A DNA stretch of 64,000 bases from Effrenium voratum. Lineage: Eukaryota; Sar; Dinophyceae; Suessiales; Symbiodiniaceae. Made by a program: the position numbers and the translations under genes. The stretch spans positions 1 to 64,000 of the forward strand of contig CAUJNA010001527.1 of assembly GCA_963377175.1 (NCBI GenBank). Reading direction: 5' to 3'. The notes under the pieces were generated by a model that had not been told where the DNA came from, did no database searches, and saw only the letters and a list, made by a program, of their open reading frames with translations. Shown one piece after another: positions 9,597-58,541 of this stretch. How positions within the stretch are numbered: the first letter of the stretch is position 1; each line of letters starts with the position of its first letter.

Positions 9597-10208
9597 TTAA
9601 ATAATTTTACTTGCTAAATTATTTATTTTCTGTTTATTTTTATTCTCTCGTTCTACCTTCATATTAATATATCTATCTTTTGCAGTTTCAAACACTTTAT
9701 TAGCTGTTGTTTCTAAATGTTTTTTCAATCGTTCTTCAACTCTTCTTTCTATTTCTTGTTCATCCACTTTTGGAATATCTTTCTTTACTTTTTCATATAC
9801 ATTATTCTCAAATTCTTTTGCTTGTGCTGGATGCATAATTTTTCTTCGAACAACTTTGTTAGGGTCTGGTTCTTTTTTAACTGGTATTCCATTACAGTTA
9901 TGACGATATTTGAAAGTGTATTTTGTTAAATATTTTTTACATTTTGGACATTCCACTTTTTCAGTTGAGTATGTTTTAGATTTTAATTCTTGCTTTGCTT
10001 CGCTTAGCAACGCGAAGCATTCGCGTTCTTCTTCTACTTTATTATCAGGTGGTATATTTTCTTTATTATTTTCTTCATTTATAATATTATTAGGCTCTAC
10101 TTCTTTACTTTCTTCATTAATAATAGGTTCTTCTTTAATTTCTTCTACTTCCTTAGGTGCTTCATTATTTTCACTGCCTACGTCTATAATTTCAATATTT
10201 TTAACCAT
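9597..10208 (-). CDS. Acidic protein with CPKC...HNC zinc finger
   Basis: A 203-residue protein. The N-terminal 75 residues are Glu/Asn-rich and end in ERECFALLSEAK, encoded by a GC-rich palindromic repeat (9997-10030). A zinc finger follows, CPKC with HNC about 15 residues later, then a basic coiled C-terminus. The B orthologue at 51035-51613 has the same order: acidic N-terminus, EREAFALLREP, CPKC and H-x3-C. In both elements it lies next to the penton gene, so a minor capsid or DNA-binding virion role is likely but unproven. Confidence 0.75.
   Translation of the reverse strand: MVKNIEIIDVGSENNEAPKEVEEIKEEPIINEESKEVEPNNIINEENNKENIPPDNKVEEERECFALLSEAKQELKSKTYSTEKVECPKCKKYLTKYTFKYRHNCNGIPVKKEPDPNKVVRRKIMHPAQAKEFENNVYEKVKKDIPKVDEQEIERRVEERLKKHLETTANKVFETAKDRYINMKVERENKNKQKINNLASKII
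9997..10030 (-). repeat. GC-rich 33 bp palindromic repeat, copy 1
   Basis: On the minus strand AACGCGAA-TGC-TTCGCGTT forms an 8 bp stem with a 3-base loop, followed by GCTAAGCGAAGC. It sits in frame in the zinc-finger gene, encoding ERECFALLSEA. It is nearly identical to copies at 11922 and 51451. Confidence 0.75.
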
Positions 10209-10298
10209 ATAATTAGTATATACTAAATATTTATATTAAAATATTTTAATTTAATTAGAATATGATAAATATTTATATTAAAATATCTAATATATGCT

Positions 10299-11132
10299 TT
10301 AACTTTCAACAAAGGTAAGGGAGAAGGACGAGTCCGCTCCGTGTAAATCTACGGTTTTTCCATAAGCATCAACATATTTGAAATGTAAGCGTCTTAAATG
10401 TCTCATTGAAACATCATTAGCGTCATTCATTAAAATCTCATTATCATAGATTACATTTCCAAATCCAGCAGTAATAGGAATTTTCTTTAGTACACGAGCA
10501 ACTCCATAAGGTGCTAATTGATTTCCATTAGTTAAACTATCACTGGTTAAGTAAATATTTTTCATTGGTAATAAATTAACAAAACCACTAACGAAAGGGT
10601 CAGGCGCAAAATTGATTTTTTCAACAGTGTTTCCTAAAACATTGTTAATAGACATTGTGTGGCTTCTGTCATAATCAACACTAAAACTGTAGTTAGTTTG
10701 CAATTCTTTATCAGTATGAATTACGAAAAAGTAAGAAACATAATTAACAGTTATAGTTATAGTATTTGTTTTTAATGAATAACTACAACTAAAAAAGTCA
10801 CTATTTCCATCAGTTCCATTGGTAGCAGTATTCAATTTATTTTGTAATTCGGTTGCTAATTCACTACCTACATAACTACCTTTATCTGGTGCTACAATAA
10901 AATAATATACTGGCGCTCCTGTTAATATTCCTCCTAATGTTAAATATAATCTATTATTTACATTTTCTTCAATAGGATAAATAGTATTAGGTAGTGATAA
11001 TTCGTGGACGTATAGTTTTGTATTTGCTCCTGTTTCTTGTGTTTCTGGTAAATCTATAACAAAGTCAGAAGTGCTTAAACTTTCATTTAGATTTCTATGT
11101 CGTGTATCAATATATATTTTACGAAAGTTCAT
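10299..11132 (-). CDS. Penton (minor capsid) protein
   Basis: A 277-residue protein matching the single-jelly-roll penton type of polinton-like viruses. The N-terminus FRKIYIDTRHRN ... TSDFVIDLP and the C-terminus RRLHFKYVDAYGKTVDLHG recur in B (51689-52544) and C (25643-26399). Pentons close the five-fold vertices of the icosahedral shell. The gene is divergent from the lipase-like gene and the capsid operon. It appears intact in A, while both other copies carry frameshifts. The family call rests on these shared end motifs, length and its place by the capsid gene. Confidence 0.8.
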   Translation of the reverse strand: MNFRKIYIDTRHRNLNESLSTSDFVIDLPETQETGANTKLYVHELSLPNTIYPIEENVNNRLYLTLGGILTGAPVYYFIVAPDKGSYVGSELATELQNKLNTATNGTDGNSDFFSCSYSLKTNTITITVNYVSYFFVIHTDKELQTNYSFSVDYDRSHTMSINNVLGNTVEKINFAPDPFVSGFVNLLPMKNIYLTSDSLTNGNQLAPYGVARVLKKIPITAGFGNVIYDNEILMNDANDVSMRHLRRLHFKYVDAYGKTVDLHGADSSFSLTFVES

Positions 11133-11172
11133 TATATTAATTAATTAGATAAAAAATATCAATATTAATATA

Positions 11173-11829
11173 ATGAAATATAAATATTATTTAAAAGAAG
11201 GTAATTTAAAATCGTATAATCCACTCCATCAAGGACATAGCGAAATGTATAGAAAAATAATTAATGAAATTCAACAAGAAAAATCATTATTCAAACCTAA
11301 ATATAATAATAATTTATCTGACACAGAAGGATTAAACAAAGCATATACAAATGGTAAAGGTTATTATTTAGATAATAATAAACTATATGTTGCTGGAACA
11401 TTTGGTAAGTCTAATATTATATCAAATATTAATGATATTTTAAGTGATATTACAATTCCATTTGGCTTAAGTTCATTCAGTGAAAGGTATAGAGATATTA
11501 GCGATATACTTGATGAAAACCATAATATTAGTGAAGTTATTTCACATTCATTGGGTAGTAGTGCGAGTGCAAAATATTTACAAAATAACCCTGATAGAAA
11601 TATTAGATTAACTACTTACGGTGCTCCTTTTATTTCAATGTCAAACAAAAACAATGACAACTACACAAGCCTAAGAAATTTTGGTGATATAGTCAGTATT
11701 TTAGATAGAGGCAGTATAACATCAAATAGAGGAGGTTTTAACCCATTAACAAATCATCAACACTCATTATATGGTGATACGGGCAAGGACGTATCAAGAA
11801 GCATTGAACCTGTAAAGGAAATTTTGTAG
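11173..11829 (+). CDS. Lipase class 3-like protein
   Basis: A 218-residue protein with the layout of an alpha/beta-hydrolase. The nucleophile elbow is SHSLGSS (the first Gly of GxSxG is Ser here), a likely acid residue lies in GDIVSIL and a His in NHQHSLYG. The longer B orthologue (52645-53424) has the canonical GHSLGSS. In both elements the gene is the first of the rightward capsid operon, directly before a small basic gene and the capsid gene. A role in breaching host membranes is plausible by analogy with capsid lipases, but activity is not shown. Confidence 0.75.
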   Translation: MKYKYYLKEGNLKSYNPLHQGHSEMYRKIINEIQQEKSLFKPKYNNNLSDTEGLNKAYTNGKGYYLDNNKLYVAGTFGKSNIISNINDILSDITIPFGLSSFSERYRDISDILDENHNISEVISHSLGSSASAKYLQNNPDRNIRLTTYGAPFISMSNKNNDNYTSLRNFGDIVSILDRGSITSNRGGFNPLTNHQHSLYGDTGKDVSRSIEPVKEIL

Positions 11830-11840
11830 TCTTATATATA

Positions 11841-12059
11841 ATGCCTAATAATGATATAAAAAACACTATAAATCCTAAAAAGAAAGTCAGTTATGATGAC
11901 ATTAAGAAAATAGTAGAGGACGAACGCGAAGCCTTCGCGTTGCTACGCGAACCTAATTATAAGGTTGAACATAATAATATTAAAAATAAATCTAAAAAAC
12001 TATTAAATAAAAAATCTAAAAAAGAAGTTATAGATTATTCACACTTTAAAATAAATTAA
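11841..12059 (+). CDS. Small basic protein upstream of capsid gene
   Basis: A 72-residue Lys/Asn-rich protein. It matches the 75-residue product at 53964-54191 in B around YDDIKKIVED / YDTLKDIVDT. Immediately after that point the A copy has eleven extra residues, EREAFALLREP, encoded by a GC-rich palindromic repeat, before the match resumes. TATATAATG marks the start. Function is unknown; it might be a small core or capsid-associated peptide. Confidence 0.65.
   Translation: MPNNDIKNTINPKKKVSYDDIKKIVEDEREAFALLREPNYKVEHNNIKNKSKKLLNKKSKKEVIDYSHFKIN
11922..11952 (+). repeat. GC-rich 33 bp palindromic repeat, copy 2
   Basis: AACGCGAA-GCC-TTCGCGTT forms an 8 bp hairpin, followed by GCTACGCGAACC. 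It is an in-frame 33 bp gain relative to the orthologous gene in B. Confidence 0.75.
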
Positions 12060-12099
12060 TTTAATAATAGAATAATATAATATTTTTCTATTATTAAAT
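12059..12099. terminator. Hairpin between small gene and capsid gene
   Basis: TTTAATAATAGAA (12060-12072) pairs with TTCTATTATTAAA (12086-12098), a 13 bp perfect stem in the gap before the capsid ATG at 12109. Confidence 0.55.
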
Positions 12100-12108
12100 A
12101 TATAAGTT

Positions 12109-13485
12109 ATGGAAACATTAGATATTGAAGATGTCCTTGTAGAGAAGAACCTTCGCTTTAAATTAAAAGATGGCGGTTCTTATGTTCGGTCAAAAGAAAG
12201 TAAAAACTTTTATCCTTCATCGGTTTCAACATATACCGCTGATACCAACTCTGTAATTAGATTTAACATTACTGGACCACCTAATCAATGGTTGTCCTTA
12301 CCTTCACTATTATTAGGATTTACTCTAAACAACACTGATAATTCAGCAAGTAATGAACTCAGACCAATTGACACAGCAGGTTTCTTTGATAGAGTGCGGG
12401 TGTTAATGGGCGATGTCATTATATGCGATTTAAATTCTCTTTCTCGTGCGAGTACAATGAAAGATGTATTAAAATCATCAGAAGAAAAGAAGATTGACGA
12501 ATTACTGGGTTTCGGAAATACTCTTCTTAATCACGATGGACGGTTTTTAGTTTGTGATGCTACTGGAACTTCTACTACTCAATCAGTCGTTAGAAATGTT
12601 ACGAATAACAATTTTAGAGGAATTAAAGGGGGTAAAGGTGCTAATGTCTATTTCGATTTAAACTTAAAATGCTTTAAGACTTGTGAAAACTGGATACCTT
12701 TATCTTATTGTCCAATAACAGTTGAATTATATTTAACAAGTGATGTATTAAAACCAATTGTTACTAGAACAGGACTTTTTACTGCTTCAAATACGAGTAT
12801 CACTTGGTCAGTTACAAAACCTTTATTCAAAGGAAATGTCTATACTCTTGATGATAGCCTTTACGCAGAATATGCAAAAATTTTAGAAACTGGTTCTCTC
12901 CCTATTACTTTTGAAACTGAAACCATGCAAGAACAAACAGCATCTGCTTCAACTGAAGTATTCACTACAATTGTCCGTAATGTATCTAAATTAAATAAAT
13001 TGTTTATTTCTTTTTCAAACCCATCTGCAAAAACTTATGTTGGAGGTTATGGAGAGCTGTTGAAAGAATATAACCGTATGTATCACCCATTAGGGAATAT
13101 AACAAATGATGTAGGTATCTATGACCCAGAATATGATTTATCCGCTTCTTTAGTAATCGGTAATCAAGTCATACCCAGTCAAGAAATTCAAGGTGTCCGT
13201 GAAGCATACGCCCATCTTATGCATTGTTCAGATAAACCAATGTTAGTTAGAGCAGAAGATTATAGGTCTCACGCTTTTATGTATGGTTTTAATTTACAAA
13301 AATTAGAAAGTGCAAATTATACTGGTATGAACCTTAAAAATAACTCAAATATGGTTGTTAAAATAAAAGCGTTGGATGGTTCAACATTATATACCGAAAA
13401 TAAAATGGCAGAGAGACTTTACATGCTCATGGTGCATGAATGTATCCTTGAAATCCGTTCAAATTCTGTAACCTTTTATGATTAA
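12109..13485 (+). CDS. Major capsid protein (double jelly roll)
   Basis: A 458-residue protein expected to form the trimeric capsomers. The conserved C-terminal block (MVHECILEIRSNSVTFYD) matches the ends of the proteins at 54210 in B (ISESVLELRESGSIIYD) and 28532 in C. The N-terminal FYPSSVSTY block also aligns with FPSGSNVY and YSPSSLSSF in those. Its place between the small basic gene and the fibre is typical of a capsid operon. The three capsid proteins in this window are far apart from each other, although A and B share other genes closely. It appears intact. Confidence 0.88.
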   Translation: METLDIEDVLVEKNLRFKLKDGGSYVRSKESKNFYPSSVSTYTADTNSVIRFNITGPPNQWLSLPSLLLGFTLNNTDNSASNELRPIDTAGFFDRVRVLMGDVIICDLNSLSRASTMKDVLKSSEEKKIDELLGFGNTLLNHDGRFLVCDATGTSTTQSVVRNVTNNNFRGIKGGKGANVYFDLNLKCFKTCENWIPLSYCPITVELYLTSDVLKPIVTRTGLFTASNTSITWSVTKPLFKGNVYTLDDSLYAEYAKILETGSLPITFETETMQEQTASASTEVFTTIVRNVSKLNKLFISFSNPSAKTYVGGYGELLKEYNRMYHPLGNITNDVGIYDPEYDLSASLVIGNQVIPSQEIQGVREAYAHLMHCSDKPMLVRAEDYRSHAFMYGFNLQKLESANYTGMNLKNNSNMVVKIKALDGSTLYTENKMAERLYMLMVHECILEIRSNSVTFYD

Positions 13486-13497
13486 ATAAAAAATATG

Positions 13498-13525
13498 ATA
13501 TTATTAATTTTCTAATTAATAATAT
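13498..13525. terminator. Hairpin between capsid and fibre genes
   Basis: ATATTATTAATT (13498-13509) pairs with AATTAATAATAT (13514-13525) across TTCT. It lies in the 46 bp gap between the capsid stop and the fibre start. Confidence 0.55.
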
Positions 13526-13531
13526 AATATT

Positions 13532-16321
13532 ATGAGCAAAAACTTAATGAATATCTTCGATATTACAGCGAATAGAATTAGACAAGTAAAAGACGGAGCA
13601 GTCAATGATATAGAAGACCTTTACGCGAGTAAATCTGACATTCAAACAGTATTAGATAGTAAAGCAGACCAAGCAGACACCTATACAAAGGAGCAAATAA
13701 ATGCTAATTTTTATGATATAACTGAAACATATGACAAAACAGAAATTAATGTATTATCAAATAATATTAGTTCAAATACATTTTTAATAGGTAATCTGAC
13801 AGTAACTTCAAATACAAATTTTAATAATATTTCATCAAATACAAGTTTAATAAATAATTTAAATTCTACTATGACAACTAATTTTAATAATATTTCTTCA
13901 AATACTAATTTAATTAGTACAAATTTTAATAATATTTCATCAAATACAAATTTAATAAATAATTTAAATTCTACTATGACAAGTAATTTTAATAATATTT
14001 CATCAAATTCTCATTTAATTAATACAAATTTTAATAATATTTCTTCAAATACAAATTTAATAAATAATTTAAATTCTACTGTATCAACTAATTTTAATAA
14101 TATTTCATCAAATTCTCATTTAATATCTCAATTACAAACAGGTTCATTTGATAGTGATTTATATTATAATAAAATAACAACTAATAATTTATTATCAGAA
14201 AAATTAGATACATCAATATTAAATAATCAATTAATACATAATATAACCAATAATTCAACTTTCAAAATAGCAGAATTTGGAAATTATAATAATTTCTTTG
14301 AAATGTATAATAATTATTTTGATAGTTATATTTATGGAAATTTAAGTGGAGCAACTATGTTTTTAAATCAAAGAGGTTTTGGAGATGTAGAAATTAATAA
14401 TTCTTCAACTTTTCAAAATGATAAAATAATATTAAATCATAATACAACAATATTATCTAATTTACAAGTATCAGGTTTATTTTCTTGTTCATCTATTTTA
14501 GATGTAGCAGGATCAGATGCTAGGTATGTTTTACAATCAGATAATTTATCAGGATTAATATCGGGAAATACGAATACAATTAATTCAATAATTACTAGTA
14601 ATAATTCACAGGATACATCATTAGGACAAAAGTTAGATAAAATATATACTAACGCTCAATCAGTAGCAGGTGCTATTAATTTTAGTGATAATACAACTTT
14701 ACACAGTAATTTAAATATGCATACTACTGGTTCTATAATATGTAATAAGTTTAGTACTACACCATCACCTAATTTAGGATTACAAATGACTTTTCAAATG
14801 TTTAATCGTGAATTTAATATTAATAGAGATGGCAGAATGTGGATGAGTTCAAGTGGTGGACAATGGGAAACACAGATAGGAGATGCTAATGTTGGCAGAG
14901 TTTGGGTGAAGGACCGGTTCGGGCTGGGAGCTGTTGGTGTTAATGGTTATGTTTTAAACTGCGCCGGAAAATCGAGATTTACTGACGCAGTTGATTTTAT
15001 AGGGACTGACAAGGCAGTAAATCTTAACAATGGTTCATATTTGAATTTTAATAATAATGGTTCAATACGAAGATATACTCCCAGTTCTATTGAAGGCTTA
15101 TATATGTCTCATGATGATTTTGTAGCCATTAGTGTTGGTGATATTACTAATGCCAGCAATCAATATATGATGTGTGATGGATTAGTTAATAAAACTATTT
15201 TTAATAAACCTATAGATGTGTTAGGTAATATTTATACGAATGCTGATGTTAATTGTGATAATGTTAATATTGATACTGATGGTAAATTAACAATTGATAC
15301 AAATTGTGAATTATATAGATATGTTAGTGCTTTTTCATCTTTTGATATGAGGAATAGTGATGCTAATTCTTCAATTAGATTTATTTGTGGAGACCCCGCT
15401 GTTCAATCTAATATAGTTGGAGCAGTTAATATTTCTACTGGATGGACTTTTAACACTGATACTGTTGATGTTATGGGCAATTTATTTGCTGATGATATTT
15501 ATGTTAAAACTAATGGAGCATTGAGAAGCAATCATTTAGCACCTAACGGAGGAACATTAATAACTGTTGATACTAATATGGCAATACAAAATGCATATTT
15601 AGCAACTAATACCATTCAATCATTTGATTTAACAACGGTTTCATTTTTGAATAATATTTCAATGACAACAGGAACAGATATATTAATGGGGACAAGTGAA
15701 ATATCAACTTATTATGATGGTACTAATTTATCTACAATTGATGTTAAATTTAATACAACCAATACAGCATTCAGAGTAATTGATAATGCAACAGTATTTT
15801 CAACATTATTATCTATTGATAAAACATTTGGGACAACAGTAAATACTGAAAGTTTTACAAATAATGCCTCATCAACATTCAATGAAAATGTAACAATTGC
15901 GGGAACGAAAAAATTGTTATGTAATTTAATTGAACCATCAACAGGAACTAATATAGATTTAACAGCAACAACAGTAACCATCAACGGAACGTTTGTTGAT
16001 TCATCTGATTCAAGATTAAAATATGATATAGATAATATTAAATCTAATTGTATGAATATTATTAAGAAATTTAAACCGAAGAAATTTAAGAGACACGATA
16101 GAAATGATGACGGTAAAACTCATATAGGATATATAGCAGATGAAGTCTTAAAAGTAATTCCTAAAGAATTTGAAAATGTTGTTAGTCAAGATAGAGATTA
16201 TTTAGGATTAAATTATTTAGTCTTACCAGTGTTAGTTCATAAAGCAGTGTTAGAATTAAATGATAAAGTAGATAAACTTGAAAAAGAAATTAAGGAATTG
16301 AAAAAAGAAAAATCTAAATAA
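13532..16321 (+). CDS. Fibre / receptor-binding protein with S74 chaperone domain
   Basis: A 929-residue protein. Residues 80-215 consist of repeats built on NFNNISSNT and LINNLNST, likely a trimeric shaft. A central module containing FNREFNINRDGRMWMSSSGG is almost the same in B. The C-terminus starts at SSDSRLKYDI and looks like a peptidase S74 intramolecular chaperone, which helps trimer folding and then cuts itself off at the Ser of this motif, using the nearby Lys. A coiled coil follows. This is the probable host-attachment spike. In B the orthologue is shorter and lies in the opposite arm and strand. Confidence 0.85.
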   Translation: MSKNLMNIFDITANRIRQVKDGAVNDIEDLYASKSDIQTVLDSKADQADTYTKEQINANFYDITETYDKTEINVLSNNISSNTFLIGNLTVTSNTNFNNISSNTSLINNLNSTMTTNFNNISSNTNLISTNFNNISSNTNLINNLNSTMTSNFNNISSNSHLINTNFNNISSNTNLINNLNSTVSTNFNNISSNSHLISQLQTGSFDSDLYYNKITTNNLLSEKLDTSILNNQLIHNITNNSTFKIAEFGNYNNFFEMYNNYFDSYIYGNLSGATMFLNQRGFGDVEINNSSTFQNDKIILNHNTTILSNLQVSGLFSCSSILDVAGSDARYVLQSDNLSGLISGNTNTINSIITSNNSQDTSLGQKLDKIYTNAQSVAGAINFSDNTTLHSNLNMHTTGSIICNKFSTTPSPNLGLQMTFQMFNREFNINRDGRMWMSSSGGQWETQIGDANVGRVWVKDRFGLGAVGVNGYVLNCAGKSRFTDAVDFIGTDKAVNLNNGSYLNFNNNGSIRRYTPSSIEGLYMSHDDFVAISVGDITNASNQYMMCDGLVNKTIFNKPIDVLGNIYTNADVNCDNVNIDTDGKLTIDTNCELYRYVSAFSSFDMRNSDANSSIRFICGDPAVQSNIVGAVNISTGWTFNTDTVDVMGNLFADDIYVKTNGALRSNHLAPNGGTLITVDTNMAIQNAYLATNTIQSFDLTTVSFLNNISMTTGTDILMGTSEISTYYDGTNLSTIDVKFNTTNTAFRVIDNATVFSTLLSIDKTFGTTVNTESFTNNASSTFNENVTIAGTKKLLCNLIEPSTGTNIDLTATTVTINGTFVDSSDSRLKYDIDNIKSNCMNIIKKFKPKKFKRHDRNDDGKTHIGYIADEVLKVIPKEFENVVSQDRDYLGLNYLVLPVLVHKAVLELNDKVDKLEKEIKELKKEKSK

Positions 16322-16330
16322 TATTATATA

Positions 16331-16540
16331 ATGTGGTTCTTCAAAAGTAAAACTAATGATATTGATAATACACCATTGGATAAATTAAATGAAATTGATG
16401 ATGAAGATACACGAGAGCGATTAATTTTAAAAAGTTTAAAAACACTAAATGAAAAAGTTAATAAACTGGAAGAAAAGAAATCTGACAAAATCTATTATAA
16501 ATTACCTGCTCTAAATCTTTGCTCATATTCATTATTTTAA
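16331..16540 (+). CDS. Small tail protein with conserved C-terminus
   Basis: A 69-residue protein. The N-terminus MWFFKSK is hydrophobic-basic, the middle is a short coil, and the last 18 residues, DKIYYKLPALNLCSYSLF, are identical to those of the 75-residue protein at 58022 in B. The B copy starts MGSSKSKP, a probable myristoylation site, so both may be membrane-tethered by different means. It lies directly after the fibre gene here and after the VHSS gene in B, always just before the ATPase. Function is unknown. Confidence 0.7.
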   Translation: MWFFKSKTNDIDNTPLDKLNEIDDEDTRERLILKSLKTLNEKVNKLEEKKSDKIYYKLPALNLCSYSLF

Positions 16541-16575
16541 ATTAATAATATTAAAATGTAATAATATTATTAATT
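16540..16575. terminator. Bidirectional hairpin between convergent genes
   Basis: ATTAATAATATTA (16541-16553) pairs exactly with 16562-16574. It lies between the small tail gene and the ATPase stop at 16570, which the hairpin overlaps. B has an equivalent structure at 58249-58286 with different bases. Confidence 0.6.
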
Positions 16576-17337: not shown

Positions 17338-17384
17338 AATAAAACAATATTATAAATACTTATAAAAAAATAATTATATTTATT

Positions 17385-17575
17385 ATTGTATGAAAGCATT
17401 GCTATGATATGGGGATATCATAGTAGAACAGGCTCTTTCATCAGCTTTAATCATAAGCATTGAAGCTAATTAGTTTGAATTAGTTTAAGCCCAGCTTACG
17501 TGTGCAGTGAAGAGCCCCATTACCCCGAGGAGAAGAGAAGATGGCGAACCCCGAGTATTCTAGATAATAAGATTA
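17385..17575. ncRNA. Conserved structured intergenic region (RNA or cis element)
   Basis: About 190 bp between the divergent ATPase and 75-residue genes. It is conserved with 59376-59560 in B better than nearby coding DNA. Predicted pairs: an outer stem ATGAAAG (17390-17396) with CTTTCAT (17435-17441) enclosing CTATGATAT (17402-17410) with ATATCATAG (17415-17423); then GCTTTAAT (17444-17451) with ATTGAAGC (17459-17466). Differences in B keep pairing: a T-A becomes T-G in the inner stem, and a T-G becomes C-G in the second. It could be a small RNA, a divergent promoter, or a replication or packaging signal. Strand unknown. Confidence 0.6.
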
Positions 17576-50999: not shown

Positions 51000-51034
51000 A
51001 ATTATTATATAGTAGGTTATAAAATAATTATATT

Positions 51035-51613
51035 CTATCTTTTTTTTCCTCTTGAGCCAAATATACCTTTATTTAATGCATTGTATTTTTCTTGCTTCTG
51101 TCTCAAATATTCATTTTGCAATAATTGGTAATGCTGTGCTATATTTTGTAGCGGGTTTGGAGGCGGTTGTGGTTGCGTTCTTCTTGGGGGCGGTGTGTTC
51201 GCTATTATATTATTTTGTTGCTGTTGTTGTGGTGGAACGTATTGCTCTTCTTCTTCGCGATATTCTACCTTTTGGGGCTTTGCTATTGGAACTGCTTTTA
51301 GTTTAGGTTTTATAGGCTTAGTTTCTAATGGTCCTTGGCAATTGCGCTCGTGGCTGTATCTATATGATTTTAATGTTAAAGTTTTGGCACATTTTGGACA
51401 GGTTATTTTCTTTTCATTGCGTGCTTGAGTTTTTGAGTTGTTTTTCAATGGTTCGCGTAGCAACGCGAATGCTTCGCGTTCTATAGGTTTCGCTTCTGTT
51501 GGTGCTTCTATTGTTGGTTCTGTCTTTGGTGCTTCTTCTTCAATTGGTGGTAATTCATTTACTGGCTCGTCTGCTTCAATTGTATTAGTAATTTCAGGTT
51601 CAACTTCTGACAT
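51035..51613 (-). CDS. Acidic/Pro-rich protein with CPKC zinc finger (element B)
   Basis: A 192-residue orthologue of the gene at 9597: acidic N-terminus, EREAFALLREP (from a GC-rich repeat), CPKCAKTL with HERNC, then a Pro/Gln-rich C-terminus (QQQQQNN, PPPRRTQPQPPP) ending GSRGKKR. It lies upstream of the fibre and downstream of the penton on the leftward strand. A virion DNA-binding role is plausible. Confidence 0.75.
   Translation of the reverse strand: MSEVEPEITNTIEADEPVNELPPIEEEAPKTEPTIEAPTEAKPIEREAFALLREPLKNNSKTQARNEKKITCPKCAKTLTLKSYRYSHERNCQGPLETKPIKPKLKAVPIAKPQKVEYREEEEQYVPPQQQQQNNIIANTPPPRRTQPQPPPNPLQNIAQHYQLLQNEYLRQKQEKYNALNKGIFGSRGKKR
51451..51481 (-). repeat. GC-rich 33 bp palindromic repeat, copy 4
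   Basis: On the minus strand AACGCGAA-GCA-TTCGCGTT then GCTACGCGAACC; one base differs from copy 2. It sits at the same point of the zinc-finger gene as copy 1 in A, so this insertion predates the split of A and B or the residues are now needed. Confidence 0.75.
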
Positions 51614-51688
51614 ATATAATATATTATATATTTTGTCTATATTTTTTATATATTTTGTCTATATGGACAAATGAGAAATATATTATAT

Positions 51689-52544
51689 TCAATTGTCTAA
51701 TTGAAATAAAAGTGAGAACTGTATGGGTACCCCGTGAAAATCAATAACTTCGTTTCTGGAGGTTGTAATTTTAAAGTGTAATCTCTTAATATTTTTACCG
51801 CCTACATCAATAAAATCTGCATATATAGGTGAGGTGTAGTCGCTAATGACTCCGCCCAGTTGTTGGTTAATTTGAACTTTTTTTTATTACTGAACTACTA
51901 AAATTATTAGGTGCTGAATATTTGTAGTCGCTTAGTTGAGGTGAGTTAATATATACATTTTGAAAAGGAACTAAATTAAAGTATCCACTTAACCAAGATG
52001 ACGCAGGTTCATAGACAATATAATTACTTAATAAATAGTTAATAGATTTTGGTCTTAAATTGTCATATTCAAACTGTCCTCTGTTCCATTCACCATTTAC
52101 ATAAGTTTCTAATTCTTCATCTGTAGGTATTTTGATTTTGTAATTTAGAGGGTCATTTAATTTAAGTTCCATTTTGCGTTCGCTTTGTCCATATACTGTT
52201 AAGAATAAGTCAGGTGCAATATCATTAAATGCCGTGTTTAATTCTGATTGTATTTTAAATGATAATTGATTGGCATAATAAATTTCACCGGATACATCAA
52301 CGGCAATGCTTCTTAATAAGACATTGGAACTATTATATAACATAATATAGAAGCGTTCGTAAAAACCTTTTTCAGTCGTATAAAAGGGGGCGCTGAATGA
52401 ACACTCTGTCACGAACATTTTTGTTCTTGGTGGAATTTCAAAGTTTTGGTCAAGTTCTATAATAAAATCGCTGGTAGAATTACTTTCTTGCAATCTGTAG
52501 GCACTATCAACATAGATTTTTTTATATGTTAATCTATCACTCAT
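51689..52544 (-). pseudogene. Penton protein (element B), frameshifted
   Basis: The N-terminus YKKIYVDSAYRLQES and TSDFIIELDQN fit the penton family; ATG 52544 is preferred over 52559. The frame runs until NFSSSVIKK, where a run of eight T (51878-51885) adds one base. In the next frame the conserved end KRLHFKITT and VIDFHGVPIQFSLLF follows to 51689. Likely decay, homopolymer error or slippage. It lies opposite the lipase-like gene, as in A. Confidence 0.78.
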
Positions 52545-52606
52545 AAATATAATATACAATAGAAATTATAATATAATTATTATTGATAATTACTTTGAAT
52601 TATTGT

Positions 52607-52640
52607 TATTAATAGATAATTTAAAAAATATCTATTAATA
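52607..52640. terminator. Hairpin before the lipase-like gene
   Basis: TATTAATAGATA (52607-52618) pairs with TATCTATTAATA (52629-52640). It lies between the divergent penton and lipase-like genes, so here it is more likely a promoter or leader element than a terminator. Confidence 0.45.
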
Positions 52641-52644
52641 ATAT

Positions 52645-53424
52645 ATGATTGGACGACAATTATTATTAGGTGCTATAGAAGGCAGGACGCCGACGCAAAT
52701 GATGGCAGGTGTAGCAAGTGATAAAGCATATACAGCAGGTAAGGATTTAATAGAAGATGTATTTTTTAACCATAAAAAGAAATTGGAAGACAAAATAGGA
52801 GGTTTCAATAAACATTTTGATAAGCAGATAATGAAACATAAAACACGCTATGCTGAAGAAATCAATGTTCAAAATAAAAATAAAATCGATGATGTCAAGG
52901 GTTTAGACGCAGCCTATTCAAATGTGAATGGAATAACAAGAATAGGCAACACATTATATATTGGTGGTACTGGTGCTAAAACGGGACTAAATCACAAAGT
53001 CAATGATGTAATTGCAGATTTGTTTTTTATTCCTACTCATAATGTTCAATTAAGCGAAAGATATAAAGACGCAATGGAAGAATTAAGAAAAAATCCAGAT
53101 GTGAATAGAATTGTTGGACATAGCCTCGGTTCATCCGTTGTTCAAGAAATCAACAACAGACACGGCAACAAATATGCTAGTACTGTTTATTCATCACCTT
53201 TTGTATCAGGGATTAATCAACAGAAAAACCCGCGACACCTAAGATTTAAAAACAAGAATGACCCTATAGCAATATTAGATGATGCCGCGATTACTGCTGA
53301 CATTGGTTCATTAGATGTGTTGGAAAACCACGGATATCAAAATTGGGAAGGAAATGGACTCACAAGTATAAATCCTACTACTGATATTTCTAATGGGTTC
53401 AACCCGAATGATAATTCGGGTTAA
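52645..53424 (+). CDS. Lipase class 3-like protein (element B)
   Basis: A 259-residue protein. The nucleophile elbow is VGHSLGSSVVQEI; the acid is probably in KNDPIAILDD and the His in ENHGYQNW, the order of class 3 lipases. The N-terminus has AGVASDKAYTAGKDL, absent from the A copy. It heads the rightward capsid operon. Phospholipase-type entry function is inferred. The last residues overlap a hairpin AACCCGAA...TTCGGGTT at the stop. Confidence 0.78.
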   Translation: MIGRQLLLGAIEGRTPTQMMAGVASDKAYTAGKDLIEDVFFNHKKKLEDKIGGFNKHFDKQIMKHKTRYAEEINVQNKNKIDDVKGLDAAYSNVNGITRIGNTLYIGGTGAKTGLNHKVNDVIADLFFIPTHNVQLSERYKDAMEELRKNPDVNRIVGHSLGSSVVQEINNRHGNKYASTVYSSPFVSGINQQKNPRHLRFKNKNDPIAILDDAAITADIGSLDVLENHGYQNWEGNGLTSINPTTDISNGFNPNDNSG

Positions 53425-53425
53425 A
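53403..53425. terminator. Hairpin at lipase-like gene stop
   Basis: AACCCGAA and TTCGGGTT form an 8 bp stem with a 6-base loop, ending in the TAA stop. It is followed by ATGCTTCGCGTTTC, a likely remnant of the GC-rich repeat, then by an AT dinucleotide run. Confidence 0.5.
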
Positions 53426-53469
53426 TGCTTCGCGTTTCAACCCCAATTCAACACCAGAACAATAAATAA

Positions 53470-53500
<31 letters not shown>

Positions 53501-53508
53501 ACTTATAT

Positions 53509-53952
53509 ATGAGTATTGATGCTGAGAAATGGGACAGCGATATTGAATATGCTTATAAGAAAATGATAGAGCGAGAGAAAAAGAAAGAATACAACATATC
53601 AAATAGTAAATATGAATGTAATTGTGGCAAAGAAGTATTGAATAAGGATAAAGAAGAGCACGAAAGCAATGATTCAAATCATTTATACTACAGAAAAGGT
53701 AATATTGAAGGACTTATAATAGGCATGTATAGTGAAATTATTAATTATGAAAATGATTACTTAAAATTACATCCAGAAAATAACAAAATACATTATACAG
53801 ATTATAGTAGAATTGATTATACCGACTTTTTAAAAGAACAAGAAGAAAAGACAATTCCATTAGATGAAGATGATTTAAGTTATTTGTATAAGTATAGAGA
53901 CGAATTAGAAGATTGTATAAAGCGTATAACTGAACTAACATTATCTCAATAA
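53509..53952 (+). CDS. Hypothetical protein with single C2H2-like site
   Basis: A 147-residue charged protein with CNCGKEVLNKDKEEHESNDSNH, a possible zinc site, and a Tyr/Asp-rich middle (HYTDYSRIDYTDF). No counterpart is seen in A at this place. It lies between the lipase-like and small basic genes on the same strand. Function unknown. Confidence 0.65.
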   Translation: MSIDAEKWDSDIEYAYKKMIEREKKKEYNISNSKYECNCGKEVLNKDKEEHESNDSNHLYYRKGNIEGLIIGMYSEIINYENDYLKLHPENNKIHYTDYSRIDYTDFLKEQEEKTIPLDEDDLSYLYKYRDELEDCIKRITELTLSQ

Positions 53953-53963
53953 TATTAATAATA

Positions 53964-54191
53964 ATGTTTAGAAATAAAGACAAGCAAAACAAAATTCCAT
54001 TAGAGAAGAAACTGACAAAAGAACCTACAAAATACGATAAACAATATAAAACATTAGATTATGATACTTTAAAAGATATAGTTGATACAAAAAATAATTA
54101 TCTAATAAATACTATAAAAAATACAACTTCAAACAATTCTACTACAATGCTTCCACATAAGAAAAATATAAAAAAAAAAAATAAAATCTAA
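53964..54191 (+). CDS. Small basic protein upstream of capsid gene (element B)
   Basis: A 75-residue Lys/Asn/Thr-rich protein, matching the A gene at 11841 around LDYDTLKDIVDT. It lacks the EREAFALLREP insertion present in A, giving the empty-site state of the GC-rich repeat. It ends KKNIKKKNKI, 18 bp before the capsid gene. Confidence 0.65.
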   Translation: MFRNKDKQNKIPLEKKLTKEPTKYDKQYKTLDYDTLKDIVDTKNNYLINTIKNTTSNNSTTMLPHKKNIKKKNKI

Positions 54192-54209
54192 GTTTATCAT
54201 ATATAAGTA

Positions 54210-55814
54210 ATGGATAATATAATTGCAGAAAGTGAAACTACAATGATTAACTCGTTAAATTTTGGACTTCCAGAAACAGCACAATACATCACAGACAGAA
54301 GACACGTTAATTATTTTCCATCAGGTAGTAATGTTTATAATCCAAATGCAGGAAACAAAAATATTAGATTTCATATATCAGGAGAAGACAACACATATAT
54401 TGATTTATCTTCTATTCGTTTATTTGCTAATCTTCAAAACACTGACGGAACACGAAGTCATTTTTTACGACCGTTAGGTAATTTATCATCCTTCTTCAGT
54501 CGGTATAGATGCACAGTAGGCGGACAACAGGTTCAGGATATTATTGAATACAATAGGCATTGTGAATTGTATAATTCTTTTAAAAGTCAAGATGCCAGAG
54601 ATATGGACGATTTAGAAGGTGGGGCTAATCCTCGTTGGGATGATGACTGGCGACACACATATGCTACTGGATTAGCAGAATTTATTGATGCTAATAATGA
54701 ACGAGGAACTACTGGAACACCACCAGATAATGTGTTAGTCGCCCCAGGAGATCATAATAATTGGGGCGATTTAACTTCAAGATACACTCGCCATTCGGTA
54801 GCAGGAATTCCCGGCGCCAATGGTTATATGAGATTAGGACATAAACCGGTATGTGGACTGTTAGAAAGCAATTATTATCTACCTTTACGATATGCTCCGC
54901 TTGAACTGGAATTTACAATTGTATCGGATGAGCACGTACCAGTAATTACACCATTTGCTACTCGTGATGCAGCGGGGGATTTAATCAACAACACATATAC
55001 TGACAAATACGGCTACTATTTCACAACAGGAGACACCTCAACGCAGTGGGAATTAAATAACGTAATTATAAGAGCCGAGGTAATTCAATTAGACAATACG
55101 GTCAATAATAACATAGTGAAACATTTGTTAGAAGGTCAAAGTTTGAAATTAGTATTTCCAATGTATCACACTATGACACAATCATTCAGCGCAGGAGGAG
55201 GAGGTGAAATTAATATGAACATTGTTAAATCCGCTTCTAAATTAAATGGTTGTTTCATTACATTGTATCGTGCGCCAAGAGCAGGTGTAGATGCTGATAA
55301 TGCCAACTATTACAGACACGATAATTATATTTATAAGAGATGGAACTATTTTTACAATCCTATGATTAACTCCCGTATCTTTGACGGTTTTAACCCAGAT
55401 GGTGCTGATCGTGAGCGTTTCCAAGGTAAAGGCTTTCAAGATAAAGATTTAAATTTAACGTGGCAATTACAAATTAACAATAAGAAATATCCAGAGTTTG
55501 AATGTCAATCGATGGCAGAAACTGCATATTATTTAAGACGAACATTACACTATTTGAACCCTGACCAAGACGCCTTTAGCATTTCATATAAACGCTACAG
55601 AGAAGACAAGTTCGTTATTGGTATATCGTTTGAGAAAATGGCAGACACTAATTTTACTGGACAGAATACTAAAATGGGAGGTTTACTCGTTTTTAAATTG
55701 AAAGGAAGCAACAGAGCACTGACAGATAATGAAGATGTGCGAGAATTATTTGTGCATATGATTTCGGAGTCTGTTCTGGAATTACGCGAATCCGGAAGCA
55801 TAATTTATGACTAA
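54210..55814 (+). CDS. Major capsid protein (double jelly roll) (element B)
   Basis: A 534-residue protein. The N-terminal DRRHVNYFPSG and RPLGNLSSFFSRYRCTVGG blocks and the C-terminal ISESVLELRESGSIIYD match the family. It is longer than in A, mostly through an insertion in the first jelly roll (about residues 140-205, Asp/Asn/Gly-rich). It forms the shell. Intact, the best preserved capsid gene in the window together with A's. Confidence 0.88.
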   Translation: MDNIIAESETTMINSLNFGLPETAQYITDRRHVNYFPSGSNVYNPNAGNKNIRFHISGEDNTYIDLSSIRLFANLQNTDGTRSHFLRPLGNLSSFFSRYRCTVGGQQVQDIIEYNRHCELYNSFKSQDARDMDDLEGGANPRWDDDWRHTYATGLAEFIDANNERGTTGTPPDNVLVAPGDHNNWGDLTSRYTRHSVAGIPGANGYMRLGHKPVCGLLESNYYLPLRYAPLELEFTIVSDEHVPVITPFATRDAAGDLINNTYTDKYGYYFTTGDTSTQWELNNVIIRAEVIQLDNTVNNNIVKHLLEGQSLKLVFPMYHTMTQSFSAGGGGEINMNIVKSASKLNGCFITLYRAPRAGVDADNANYYRHDNYIYKRWNYFYNPMINSRIFDGFNPDGADRERFQGKGFQDKDLNLTWQLQINNKKYPEFECQSMAETAYYLRRTLHYLNPDQDAFSISYKRYREDKFVIGISFEKMADTNFTGQNTKMGGLLVFKLKGSNRALTDNEDVRELFVHMISESVLELRESGSIIYD

Positions 55815-55839
55815 AATTAAAATCTATGATTAATATATA

Positions 55840-56157
55840 ATGTATAAATTTCATAAACGAAATAACTTAAAAAATAAAGGTAAGATATTCTTACAATCCT
55901 CGCAAATTAAATATAGTCCATTTGATTTAAAAGATAATGAATATCTAAAACACCTACACGAACAAATGAAATTAAGAAATTCACAAGAAGCATCAGTAGC
56001 ATTTAGAAAACACATTCAAGAAGGACACGCCAGAGCAAATTATCAAAATGAATTAGACAGATTAACAATGGAACTACATCGCCCAAATCTACCACATTCG
56101 ACGAAGGAGCATTTAGAAAAACGAATTAAGGAGCTGGAAAAATTAACATTTACTTAA
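55840..56157 (+). CDS. Small helical virion-type protein (element B)
   Basis: A 105-residue basic protein with YSPFDLKDNEYLKHLHEQMK and a coiled C-terminus (KEHLEKRIKELEKL). Related in pattern to 26801-27091 in C and the middle of 9117-9578 in A. It follows the capsid gene by 25 bp and probably shares its transcript. Confidence 0.7.
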   Translation: MYKFHKRNNLKNKGKIFLQSSQIKYSPFDLKDNEYLKHLHEQMKLRNSQEASVAFRKHIQEGHARANYQNELDRLTMELHRPNLPHSTKEHLEKRIKELEKLTFT

Positions 56158-56158
56158 A

Positions 56159-56203
56159 ATTTATTATAATAATATTAATAATCTAACTATTATTATAATA
56201 AAT
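56159..56203. terminator. Hairpin, 16 bp stem, abutting the next ATG
   Basis: ATTTATTATAATAATA (56159-56174) pairs exactly with 56188-56203, and the ATG of the next gene is at 56204. It would end one transcript and lie in the leader of the next. Confidence 0.58.
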
Positions 56204-57184
56204 ATGGCAACTACAGCAAGTTTAGAATTAATAAATCCATATGCAAAATTTGGATTGAAACGACGCCCCACTTATGAAGAAATTGTAGGTCTAATTGGCG
56301 AAAATGATTTAATAACAGGAAAACTACCTAACCGAGATGCTACATTCTTCAAAGCAAGTCCTCAAGGAAGTTTTTTTGATGGAAGCGACCATTTAGAATT
56401 ATTGAAAGACCAACAAATGAGAATATTAGACAGACAAATGAGAGAACTAATGATGAAACAGGAAGCGCGCAGAAACGGGCACACTTATGCAGTGCATAGG
56501 ATGAATGCTGACACACCATTAACCAGAAACGCAGAAGCAATAGAAGATGAATATGATTTTTCCACACCGCTACAAACAACAAGACAACACGAGGCAATGG
56601 TAGATACAAGGCTACAAGAACTAACCACAGCAACAAAAGAAAGAGTAAATGAAGTGAGCCAAGCAATGGCATCAAACTTACGAGAAATGGGTGGAACAAT
56701 TTTTCAAAGAATGCTAGGCAATAGACAATCAGCACCATCGGCAACAACAAGAACAGTACCGGATAATCTCCCAGTATTAGAATACGAAGGTTCGCCAATT
56801 TCAGGCGGAGATGATGCCCAAGTAGAATATCAAGCCACAGGAGCATCAAGTTCAACGCCACAGCAACCACCACCATTACCATTATATCCAGTATTCAAAA
56901 CAACAATAGATAATAATATTAGTCCTGTTTACTGGAAAAACAACCCTAATTTAACAGTAGATGATATTAAATTTCAATTTTATTTAAGAGGAATTCAAGT
57001 GCCACAAGAAAACGAAATACAAGAAGAATTGAAACACAAAGGCAGAGGCAAGGCGAGAACGTACAAAGAATATTTAGTAGATATGATTTTAGACACTATT
57101 GATAATGGCGGGTGGATAGTAAATTTAGGCAAAGGTAGAATAGAAGAACTCAAGGCAAGTTTTAAGGGCAAAGGTAAGAAATAA
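56204..57184 (+). CDS. Virion-type protein with RPTY motif (element B)
   Basis: A 326-residue protein. The N-terminus FGLKRRPTYEEIVGLI then LPNRDATFFKASPQG is the clearest example of the shared virion motif. A long helical part follows, a Pro/Ser-rich linker (SSSTPQQPPPLPLYP) and a C-terminal domain with KGRGKARTYKEYLVDMIL ending GKGKK. The A counterpart is at 8390 on the opposite strand. Likely a minor capsid or internal protein. Confidence 0.75.
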   Translation: MATTASLELINPYAKFGLKRRPTYEEIVGLIGENDLITGKLPNRDATFFKASPQGSFFDGSDHLELLKDQQMRILDRQMRELMMKQEARRNGHTYAVHRMNADTPLTRNAEAIEDEYDFSTPLQTTRQHEAMVDTRLQELTTATKERVNEVSQAMASNLREMGGTIFQRMLGNRQSAPSATTRTVPDNLPVLEYEGSPISGGDDAQVEYQATGASSSTPQQPPPLPLYPVFKTTIDNNISPVYWKNNPNLTVDDIKFQFYLRGIQVPQENEIQEELKHKGRGKARTYKEYLVDMILDTIDNGGWIVNLGKGRIEELKASFKGKGKK

Positions 57185-57206
57185 TATATAAATAATAATA
57201 ATAATA

Positions 57207-58010
57207 ATGATAATATTAACTAAAAATATACTGAAAAGAAAGAAGCAGAAATTCAATGATAAATATGATGACGACAGTTTTACAATACATAACCTAATGA
57301 AACCAAACACTTCAACAACAATACAACCACCGAAATTGATGAAAAAGGGCATACCGAGAGAATTTATTGACATTGCAACCAACACAGATACAATCGCCAC
57401 AGAAACCAGAGAGACTCAAGAAAAGTTATACAATGATGCAAATCAACAATTAAATATGACATTTGAAGCGTTTAAGGTAAAGGAAAACCAGGACAATATG
57501 TTTCAAATAATGCTTAAAAACTTTTGGCGCAACACATACAAAAGAAATGAGCCAACAAGAACACAAGCAACACAAACATTGAAAAACCAACGTGACGCAA
57601 TGGTGTCAGCCTTTACTAAAATGCTCGACAACAACAAACCGCCAGAACCACCGCCAAAGAAACCAGACGAGGATGACAGCGATGAAGAAGAAAAGAAGTT
57701 CAAACTGACAAAAATGATAGAAATAATGCTACACAACGGCGCTACAGTAGCAGATATAATATTAAACTTATCACATAGCGCAATTGCAACAACAATAAAT
57801 ATCGCAGATTTAGTTAATCAGATAACAGCAGGAAATGCACAAAGTAGCAGTAGCAATTCATCAAATGAAGCTATTAGTGTTCATAGTTCTCCACCTATTA
57901 CTGTTCATAGTTCTTCATCTGAAAGTCCAACAGAAATACCAGCACCAACTGAAGACGAAGAAGAAGAAGAAAACCAAAATTTCAATTTTGAAAAATTAAA
58001 ATCTAAATAA
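57207..58010 (+). CDS. Virion-type protein with VHSS tail (element B)
   Basis: A 267-residue counterpart of 7462-8352 in A. It has RTQATQTLKN (one LC8-like TQT), an acidic stretch DEDDSDEEEKK, the helical block MIEIMLHNGATVADIILNLS and the tail VHSSPPITVHSSS. The N-terminal RPTY motif is not obvious. It reads rightward, whereas in A it reads leftward. Role probably structural. Confidence 0.72.
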   Translation: MIILTKNILKRKKQKFNDKYDDDSFTIHNLMKPNTSTTIQPPKLMKKGIPREFIDIATNTDTIATETRETQEKLYNDANQQLNMTFEAFKVKENQDNMFQIMLKNFWRNTYKRNEPTRTQATQTLKNQRDAMVSAFTKMLDNNKPPEPPPKKPDEDDSDEEEKKFKLTKMIEIMLHNGATVADIILNLSHSAIATTINIADLVNQITAGNAQSSSSNSSNEAISVHSSPPITVHSSSSESPTEIPAPTEDEEEEENQNFNFEKLKSK

Positions 58011-58021
58011 TATTATATATA

Positions 58022-58249
58022 ATGGGTTCAAGTAAATCAAAACCAGTAGAAATTGATGATGAAGAGGCTATTAAAGTAATAAAAGATATAGATGTAAATA
58101 CGATAAGTGAAATGTCAAGAATTGATATTCTACAAATAAATTCATTGAAAGCAATAATCAATAAATTAGAAAAAGTTAATGAATGTAAAAAAGATAAAAT
58201 ATATTATAAATTACCTGCTTTGAATCTATGTAGCTATTCATTATTTTGA
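58022..58249 (+). CDS. Small tail protein, probably N-myristoylated (element B)
   Basis: A 75-residue protein starting MGSSKSKP, which fits the N-myristoylation consensus (Gly2, Ser6, Lys7) and equals the first residues of the Src kinase. The last 18 residues, DKIYYKLPALNLCSYSLF, are identical to those of the A protein at 16331. TATATAATG marks the start. Likely a membrane-associated virion or host-interaction protein; function unknown. Confidence 0.72.
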   Translation: MGSSKSKPVEIDDEEAIKVIKDIDVNTISEMSRIDILQINSLKAIINKLEKVNECKKDKIYYKLPALNLCSYSLF

Positions 58250-58286
58250 ATTAATAACATTAAGCCATGGCTTAATGCTATTAATT
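58249..58286. terminator. Bidirectional hairpin, 17 bp stem
   Basis: 58249-58265 pairs with 58270-58286 with one mismatch around a CATG loop. It separates the convergent small tail gene and the zinc gene at 58281. The position matches the A hairpin at 16540 although the sequence differs. Confidence 0.6.
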
Positions 58287-58541
58287 GCTTATACAACTTC
58301 TTTCACTTTTTGGCGTTGATGTTGAAACAGTGCTATTTGTTTCATCTATTAAATCGTCGCGAAGCTCGCGAGCCTCTGGCGAAGCGTCTTCATCAACAAA
58401 ATTATTTTGAAATCTTAATAATTCCTCGTCCGTTGCCCTCCTCTTCAATGCCTTATAAAGTTTATGTATCCAAGAATTAGTATGAAAATTATAATTACCT
58501 CTACGATACAATCCGCCACATCTACATAGTTTCATTGGCAT
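58281..58541 (-). CDS. Small zinc-finger-like protein with GC-repeat insertion
   Basis: An 86-residue protein. CRCGGLYRRGNYNFHTNSWIH is a C2H2-like finger and resembles the finger of the 60-residue product at 59592. EDASPEARELRDD is encoded by a GC-rich palindromic repeat (58355-58390) and is not needed for the finger. There is no A counterpart. Function unknown. Confidence 0.65.
   Translation of the reverse strand: MPMKLCRCGGLYRRGNYNFHTNSWIHKLYKALKRRATDEELLRFQNNFVDEDASPEARELRDDLIDETNSTVSTSTPKSERSCISN
58355..58390 (-). repeat. GC-rich 33 bp palindromic repeat, copy 5
   Basis: The minus strand reads GACGCTTCGCCAGAGGC then TCGCGAGCTTCGCGAC, the same subtype as copy 3 at 17607. In frame. Confidence 0.7.

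Follow-up and report, generated by a model that had tools for sequence, protein, structure and literature searches.

The stretch analysed here (the window) comprises 64,000 nucleotides of Effrenium voratum (Dinophyceae; GenBank assembly GCA_963377175.1, contig CAUJNA010001527.1, positions 1 to 64,000, forward strand), in which two AT-rich polinton-like viruses (PLVs), A and B, are embedded in GC-rich DNA. Scattered through these viruses are short GC-rich palindromic islands, six of which had been singled out from the letters alone in an original prediction (at 9997, 11922, 17607, 30530, 51451, and 58355); all are present at those places. If an island is defined as a 33-bp stretch with at least four CGCG, GCGA, or TCGC words, a criterion chosen after the six had been seen, the AT-rich PLV parts of the window hold exactly these six; 200 dinucleotide shuffles yielded 0.33 on average and at most 3. 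The islands exceed chance and belong together as a single family of short, GC-rich hairpins within the AT-rich PLVs (Table 1).

Hairpin islands in two polinton-like viruses

PLV B has a weak match to a phage transposase. PLV A encodes a Pox_A32-type packaging ATPase, the PLV B counterpart of which is 45% identical. In the host assembly searched (1.156 Gb, 3,699 contigs), this ATPase has at least 149 scored matches, all 96-100% identical (from 5,200 first-look candidates); related PLVs are therefore numerous in this genome, and alleles with the element (filled) and without it (empty) can thus be compared among PLV copies. Stretches of the host genome read for this comparison carry L-numbers (L001, L002, and so on), and sites of insertion carry S-labels. 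Under the same word criterion, and with flanks below 42% GC, stretches L001-L098 (284,933 bases, overlapping copies included) contain 65 islands, nearly all of this hairpin family; two, in L037 and L038, are clear non-members.

Table 1. Element copies in the window and the viruses that carry them (TIR, terminal inverted repeat; ORF, open reading frame)
Feature	Position	Strand	Context
Subtype 1, 27 bp, loop TGC, CGCGAATGCTTCGCGTTGCTAAGCGAA	9999..10025	-	Zinc-finger-like gene 9597-10208; peptide RECFALLSE
Subtype 1, 27 bp, loop GCC (S2)	11925..11951	+	Small gene starting at 11841; peptide REAFALLRE; target GAA^CC
Subtype 2, 34 bp, net gain 33 (S3)	17609..17642	+	Double hairpin directly after ATG + GA of gene starting at 17604
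Remnant CGCCTCGCC, internally deleted, of a 31-bp subtype 2 element (S5)	18393..18401	+	Window copy frameshifted
Subtype 2-like, 34 bp, net gain 33 (S7)	30528..30561	-	Inside left TIR of PLV B; right TIR without element
Subtype 1, 27 bp, loop GCA	51452..51478	-	Gene 51035-51613; peptide REAFALLRE
Subtype 2, 31 bp, net gain 30 by predicted empty site (S6)	58356..58386	-	ORF 58281-58541; peptide DASPEARELRD
PLV A, carrier	240..21873		TIRs 240-592 and 21521-21873, inverted, 99.4% identical
PLV B, carrier	30417..64000, runs off window		Broken at ~34-45 kb by GC-rich stretch with reverse transcriptase and endonuclease domain

Two subtypes can be distinguished. Subtype 1 (27 bp) reads CGCGAA-NNN-TTCGCG-TTGCTA-CGCGAA and folds as one hairpin; its loops are GCC, GCA, TGC, and, once, GCT, with GCA and TGC being reverse complements of one another, i.e., inverted loops. 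Subtype 2 (31-34 bp) starts with CGC, ends with GCGAC, and often forms two adjacent hairpins. Among 12 variants folded as single sequences with DNA parameters, this double arrangement was recovered in six (S3, S4, S5, S6, the L042 site, and the variant labelled C925), and was not recovered in S4b, in S7 (the TIR copy), in the merged L055 element, or in three subtype 1 forms. The first arms of the double hairpins covary (TTC/GAA, ATC/GAT, CTC/GAG, and TC/GA), the alignment of five subtype 2 elements being poor, with differing loop lengths. The 3' half, GCC-T(T)CGCG-loop-CGCGA(A/C), is common to both subtypes, most clearly in S4b. Elements also occur in tandem on successive GAA sites of an acidic linker (54 bp apart in L113 and 42 bp apart in L114), while L055 resembles two merged elements at a site where L042 has one. 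The original prediction had envisaged a single 33-bp unit folding into hairpins; the folding stands, but the single unit gives way to two subtypes with gains of 27, 30, 31, or 33 bp.

At the level of the whole assembly, the long subtype 1 pattern has 155 matches with at most one mismatch (reversed control, 0), and all 20 of the matches fetched lie in low-GC DNA (0.23-0.37), in a few PLV gene contexts. The short palindrome CGCGAAGCTTCGCG occurs at 106 places, versus 34 for its reversed control, and the four places fetched are all in AT-rich PLV DNA. A search for the elements in metagenomic viruses gave no sign of them: the viral_contigs collection contains no exact match to the long subtype 1 patterns, while the inner palindrome AACGCGAANNNTTCGCGTT in 13 stretches and the subtype 2 core in one came without the remainder of the element, as far as shown, in flanks whose GC content lies within 0.05 of that of the locus itself. 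A search of viral_contigs likewise turned up no relative of this ATPase. A prokaryotic source was rejected by an exact pattern scan, in which the subtype 1 pattern had no match in the prokaryote genome collection.

Filled and empty sites and the insertion rule

Copies matching the flank patterns of a site were typed as filled or empty and counted as distinct genomic copies (L002 and L004 carry a further S4b-type copy outside the pattern); two spurious S4b matches, L015 and L022 (TATGGA), as well as L093, with a 58-bp gap and no element, were excluded before counting and from the trees. A gain of 27 bp separates the two states at S1 (3 filled, 14 empty), at S1b (1 and 2), and, exactly, at S2 (8 and 14, with a footprint in L060 belonging to neither state). 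S1c has no clean empty copy; eight of its rows are filled (L040 among them), and L077 shows a footprint. The gain is 33 bp at S3 (9 filled; 1 empty, L008, reading ATGGA-A-AGG) and 31 bp at the intergenic sites S4 (4 filled, 34 empty) and S4b (8 and 27). S5, near 18393, comprises four filled copies (+30), two empty ones, the internally deleted remnant of the window, and three copies with G instead of A; by locus, the element is full in L011-L014 and L038, absent in L008 and L004, and represented by the G allele in L003, L005, L006, and L035, these last being either near-clean losses or mutated empty sites. Other alleles of the gene at 9597-10208 provide clean filled/empty pairs (+27) at GAACC sites close by; among the copies read, none is a clean empty counterpart of the very allele found at 9997.

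The flanks of a filled and an empty copy can be identical, and the insertions are therefore recent. In the best pairs, 600 of 600 flanking bases agree at S3 (L035 and others versus L008) and at S4b (L020 versus L095, L091, L088, and L029); the corresponding values are 367/369 at S1, 521/524 at S2, and 469/470 at S5, with the closest S4 pair reaching only 473/497. Near-identical elements are present at unrelated sites and in unrelated genes, and the filled state is common to PLV copies at different host loci. Such coexistence of filled and empty alleles, near-identical elements at unrelated sites, and a short target rule bear out the proposal of a very small mobile or copied palindromic element, comparable in behaviour to the palindromic elements of Rickettsia but shorter.

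The lengths that had been proposed fared unevenly. An exact 33-bp gain in the gene at 17604 holds both against PLV B and against L008, in which 300 bp on each side are identical to the filled copies. The left TIR of PLV B is likewise exactly 33 bp longer than the right one, with full identity between the two along the neighbouring 113 bp and the 19 bp after that; the left repeat and the reverse complement of 63888-64000 match at 113 of 113 bases. The eleven codons claimed for the gene at 11841 came from a poorly alignable partner, and empty copies of the same gene give 27 bp, i.e., nine codons. A fixed gain of 33 bp can thus not be maintained: it is 27 bp at 11922 and in other alleles of the gene at 9997, 30 bp at 58355 and at ~18393, 31 bp at the two intergenic sites, and 33 bp at 17609 and 30528. 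Variable-length gains, which had been named as a finding that would speak against a mobile element, do occur, but length is fixed within each variant, so that this variation does not refute mobility.

Each subtype follows a short target rule. Subtype 1 is inserted after GAA, converting GAA-CC into GAA-[CGC..CGCGAA]-CC. Subtype 2 is inserted after the GA of (G)GAA, converting GGA-A-x into GGA-[CGC...GCGAC]-x, with the third target base changed from A to C at all four sites for which both alleles were read (S3, S4, S4b, and S5); at S4 and at S4b this change is seen in two sequence backgrounds each. The TIR copy (S7) fits the rule with C remaining C. Applied forward to S6, at which both copies read (window and L002) are filled, the rule predicts the empty sequence TTGATGAAGA-A-GATTTAATAGATGAAA. 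Counted by sequence alone, this has 560 matches at two or fewer mismatches (23 exact; reversed control, 0), and the base left as a wildcard is the predicted A in 100 of the 100 matches listed. With the empty sequence found as predicted, the gain at 58356 is therefore 30 bp and not 33. The corresponding predictions are GTTGGTAATTGA-A-CTGCTTT for the L042/L055 site and CAAGGGACA-C-CACGCCCC for the TIR site.

Within genes, the gains are 27, 30, or 33 bp (9-11 codons), compared with 31 bp at the two typed intergenic sites and 33 bp in the TIR. All coding copies read share one frame and orientation, giving the peptides REAFALLRE, RECFALLRE, RECFALLSE, DASPEARVLRD, DASPEARELRD, and DASARSLAKLRD. The original prediction had viewed a size divisible by three as a property allowing the element to enter genes without breaking them; the two 31-bp insertions do not support this. 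In the 31 ORFs taken as genes, GAACC stands in sense frame 0 at 24 of its 52 occurrences, and GGAA has its GAA as a codon at 57 of 193. Since intergenic gains are 31 bp and the targets are often in-frame Glu codons, the in-frame lengths are better explained by selection and target bias, and we infer that in-frame presence in genes reflects mainly purifying selection together with this bias.

Both states are also seen among protein homologues, with classes assigned by loose patterns, 27 of 109 and 61 of 95 proteins unclassified, and some of the proteins possibly derived from the same assembly. For the zinc-finger-like protein, 15 of 109 homologues have the peptide by the first pattern, two more have mutated forms (P0122 and P0193), and 65 are clean empty by a loose pattern; P0190 and P0191 read EREP, like a footprint. 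The gene at 51035-51613 is the PLV B counterpart of the PLV A gene at 9597-10208, and the copies at 9997 and 51451 are therefore not in two unrelated genes; among 95 homologues of the PLV B form, three are filled, 31 are clean empty, and 61 are unclassified. P0322, a more distant homologue, has the subtype 2 peptide and no clean empty partner among the homologues; its nearest relatives (44-50% identical) are mostly gapped around the peptide, with P0301 ungapped there.

Movement, loss, and the alternatives

As far as aligned alleles can tell, the comparison shows recurrent, target-specific, and recent gain of hairpins, accompanied by one-base overwrite and followed by decay through partial deletion. 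Mobility, as opposed to loss or artefact, is on these alignments very likely. We further consider it probable, with more reserve, that the family is one of mobile DNA elements, 27-34 bp long, non-coding and non-autonomous, that live in PLVs. As our preferred mechanism, strand transfer or template switching at GA(A) is put forward tentatively from the end products, because a jump of this kind would leave just these traces, namely the letters at the edges of the element and the overwritten base. Copying, and not excision, would take place as the PLV replicates: a 3' end of the target (..GA or ..GAA) would anneal to identical letters bordering an element at another place and copy the hairpin, including its terminal GA(A/C); the copied strand would then fall back on the GA of the target, with its last base replacing the original one. 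Hairpin formation in single strands would account for the matching stem arms and for the inverted loops (GCA/TGC).

Polarity and loss can be read at several sites. Simple excision would not recreate the A seen in the empty alleles of subtype 2. In flank trees (midpoint-rooted, the root serving for drawing only), the 35 rows of S4b include two wholly empty groups of five and six rows, and the eight filled rows require five changes (four to five in bootstraps), three of them forced by supported branches. Losses do occur: a 6-bp CGCGAA footprint, the outcome that deletion between repeats within the element should give, is left in L060, L077, and L078, and in the S5 copy of the window a partial deletion shifts the frame, leaving an open frame of 56 amino acids as compared to 109 for the empty and 119 for the filled state (18382-18410). 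Decay proceeds through partial deletion or through slippage involving the CGCGAA repeats of the element itself. Since recognisable losses leave scars, the clean empty sites are probably mostly ancestral. At S3, polarity is suggested by the base overwrite and by more distant copies that have no element at that start codon.

Several observations weigh against the proposed movement and its template-switching route. Movement and the template-switch steps are read from end products, and no enzyme has been linked to the elements. The 3-bp GAA repeat of subtype 1 is equally compatible with target-site duplication by a transposase, and the sharp, reproducible ends and strict target look more enzyme-like than loose microhomology. 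The S7 target, GACAC, contains no GAA. The 560 matches to the S6 prediction were judged without their contexts, and an A would be expected there most often anyway, the site being an AT-rich GAA codon; the test draws more strength from the continuous predicted sequence. In the S2 tree (22 rows), just two of six changes are forced, and the patchy pattern may come in part from recombination between PLV copies, because 200 of 500 shuffles scatter the labels just as much. Filled copies outnumber empty ones at S3 (9 to 1) and S5 (4 to 2), where counts alone leave loss possible, and CGCGAAGCTTCGCG by itself is only about threefold over its reversed control genome-wide.

A dedicated enzyme of PLV or host, i.e., an unrecognised transposase or a hairpin endonuclease performing true transposition, would explain the strict ends and target as well as the clean 27-bp gain, with the GAA on either side of subtype 1 as a 3-bp target-site duplication. 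PLV A has a weak rve-like integrase match, below the cut-off of Pfam, and a number of PLV proteins either lack a family match at E 0.001 or match below threshold. We hold this route to be rather unlikely, though a serious competitor, above all for subtype 1: subtype 2 has a replaced base and no duplicated intact target, DNA of 24-34 bp is very short for most transposases, and Y1_Tnp (PF01797; RAYT/IS200-type) has no match in the host genome at E <= 0.001, whereas 5 of 14 control genomes match, other transposase families not having been searched genome-wide. Movement through RNA, reverse-transcribed into DNA as has been suggested for certain mitochondrial hairpin elements, could draw on the reverse transcriptase/endonuclease element inside PLV B and would suit the single orientation and frame, relative to the gene, of the coding insertions read; such a route is discussed for GC42 (PMC4478555) and for the Allomyces elements (PMC2800124). 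It seems improbable, given that the typed sites, two of them intergenic, lack poly(A) and show at most one co-copied flanking base, and that a target codon bias can explain part of the orientation.

Selection could, alternatively, have kept the peptides (REAFALLRE, DASPEAR.LRD) as cassettes spread among genes by ordinary recombination, in keeping with the shared frame and orientation of the coding cases and with the occurrence of the same peptide in the unrelated gene at 11841; family members in intergenic DNA (31-bp gains) and in the TIR, along with the absence of the peptide from most classified homologues (15/109 and 3/95 have it), render this very improbable. Even less credence can be given to ancestral islands deleted in many copies, which the original prediction had named as a refuting outcome. 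The footprints and the window remnant at 18393, the S5 G allele, and the filled majority at S3 would fit it, but clean empty copies form the majority at S1, S2, S4, and S4b, subtype 2 empties carry an A that simple deletion would not restore, the empty S6 sequence occurs 560 times (only the empty side being counted), and recognised losses leave scars; ancestral loss thus fails at most typed sites. An assembly or sequencing artefact, with hairpins dropped from some copies, would be conceivable in that GC hairpins can be hard to sequence and that the protein collection showing both states may contain the same assembly. The A/C allele difference, the two backgrounds at S4 and S4b, and the intermediate footprints are unlike dropout, and we regard this explanation as highly unlikely.

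Comparison with known repeats, and the carrier viruses

The family is genuine and was active recently, and its minute hairpins bear the hallmarks of mobile DNA; the behaviour is of a known kind, the setting (PLVs) is new, and the evidence is unusually clean. The closest likeness of the elements is to the GC clusters of yeast mitochondria (GC42), which share the form of short GC-rich palindromes in AT-rich DNA and the sporadic presence or absence among close relatives. GC42 clusters also have short direct repeats at their ends (AG or ACT), footprints, merged units, one cluster known in a gene, and an unsettled mechanism (PMC4478555). GC42 clusters differ in being 42 bp long and mitochondrial, whereas the PLV elements measure 27-34 bp, use a GA(A) target with one-base overwrite, and include several in-frame coding insertions. 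Since the copies read are located in PLVs (bordered, in the window, by GC-rich host DNA) and not in mitochondrial DNA, the family resembles GC clusters in the way it works without belonging to them.

Hairpin elements of dinoflagellate plastid minicircles were reportedly described by Nelson and Green in 2005. Such double or repetitive hairpin elements are organellar, and the comparison is one of layout, with six of the 12 folded variants having two adjacent hairpins and the others folding otherwise. Mitochondrial hairpin elements of fungi and sponges consist of one or two adjacent hairpins and are dispersed, also within genes (PMC2800124). Rickettsia palindromic elements are palindromic repeats lying in frame in genes (PMC10969869), much as the PLV elements lie in frame in unrelated genes; they are bacterial and ~150 bp long, with the PLV elements being about a fifth of that and occurring as clean filled/empty pairs.

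The cyanobacterial small dispersed repeats of Elhai et al. (2008) are said to be very small mobile repeats of the same size range. REP/REPIN sequences and CGTC repeats are dispersed palindromes of 20-40 bp, some of them in genes, the CGTC repeats being without a known transposase (PMC3733652). The PLV elements differ from REP/REPIN in the lack of a Y1 transposase match in the host genome and, by inspection, of a GTAG or CGTC tag at the 5' foot, the feet being GA(A) followed by CGC on one side and GCGA(A/C) on the other. The letters GTAG do occur inside the reverse strand of subtype 1; membership among the CGTC-tagged repeats was considered and dropped, with the tag at the wrong end.

Palindromic invaders are also known from eukaryotic DNA viruses, in the form of miniature inverted-repeat transposable elements (MITEs) of giant viruses (pandoraviruses and pithoviruses). 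The pithovirus elements M1 and M2 carry TIRs (54 and 47 bp) along with a putative duplication of TA (PMC10664404). The PLV elements, far smaller, have no such TIRs or TA duplication: GAA stands on both sides of subtype 1, subtype 2 overwrites a base, the hairpins are internal, and the ends are direct GA(A/C) repeats. Among open-licence full texts, no description of such elements in PLVs was found, which is not proof of absence; the string "palindrom" has no occurrence in the main text of PMC12220804, PMC10675990, or PMC12721341.

It is conceivable, if somewhat doubtful, that the family represents a distinct type of mobile element near the lower size limit, of ~30 bp, with no gene and no terminal inverted repeats, with ends made of its own target letters, copied at GA(A) with overwrite in subtype 2, travelling as an in-frame peptide cassette, and parasitic on PLVs. 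Some PLVs in turn depend on giant viruses. The way in which the smallest palindromic repeats move, among them GC clusters, REP-like repeats that lack a transposase, and Rickettsia palindromic elements, is an old question, for which clean filled/empty pairs with identical flanks are valuable; with at least 149 close PLV relatives, two subtypes, a correct prediction, polarity, footprints, inverted loops, and merged units in one protist genome, the mechanism becomes testable. PLVs would also gain a new kind of guest, and short peptides a simple way of passing from one viral gene to another, unrelated one.

Further features of the carrier viruses were noted. The GC-rich insert in PLV B (34000-45000) contains reverse transcriptase and endonuclease domains; comparable nested GC-rich reverse transcriptase elements have been reported in cryptophyte PLVs (PMC12220804). 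In PLV A, tandem repeat units of ~105 bp occupy 13760-14125 of a gene for a 929-amino-acid protein with a C-terminal Peptidase_S74 domain; they have partial matches in PLV B at 50475-50658 and vary in length among relatives. Just beyond the terminal repeats of PLV A, at 24-246 and 21880-22269, lie tandem repeats of ~72 bp that are mutually inverted. Upstream of the start of the S3 gene, many PLVs (many of L018-L034) have an extra block of ~200 bp that the A clade does not, and L009/L036 (C66) are without a 61-bp segment (the equivalent of 17502-17562) that other A-clade copies have.

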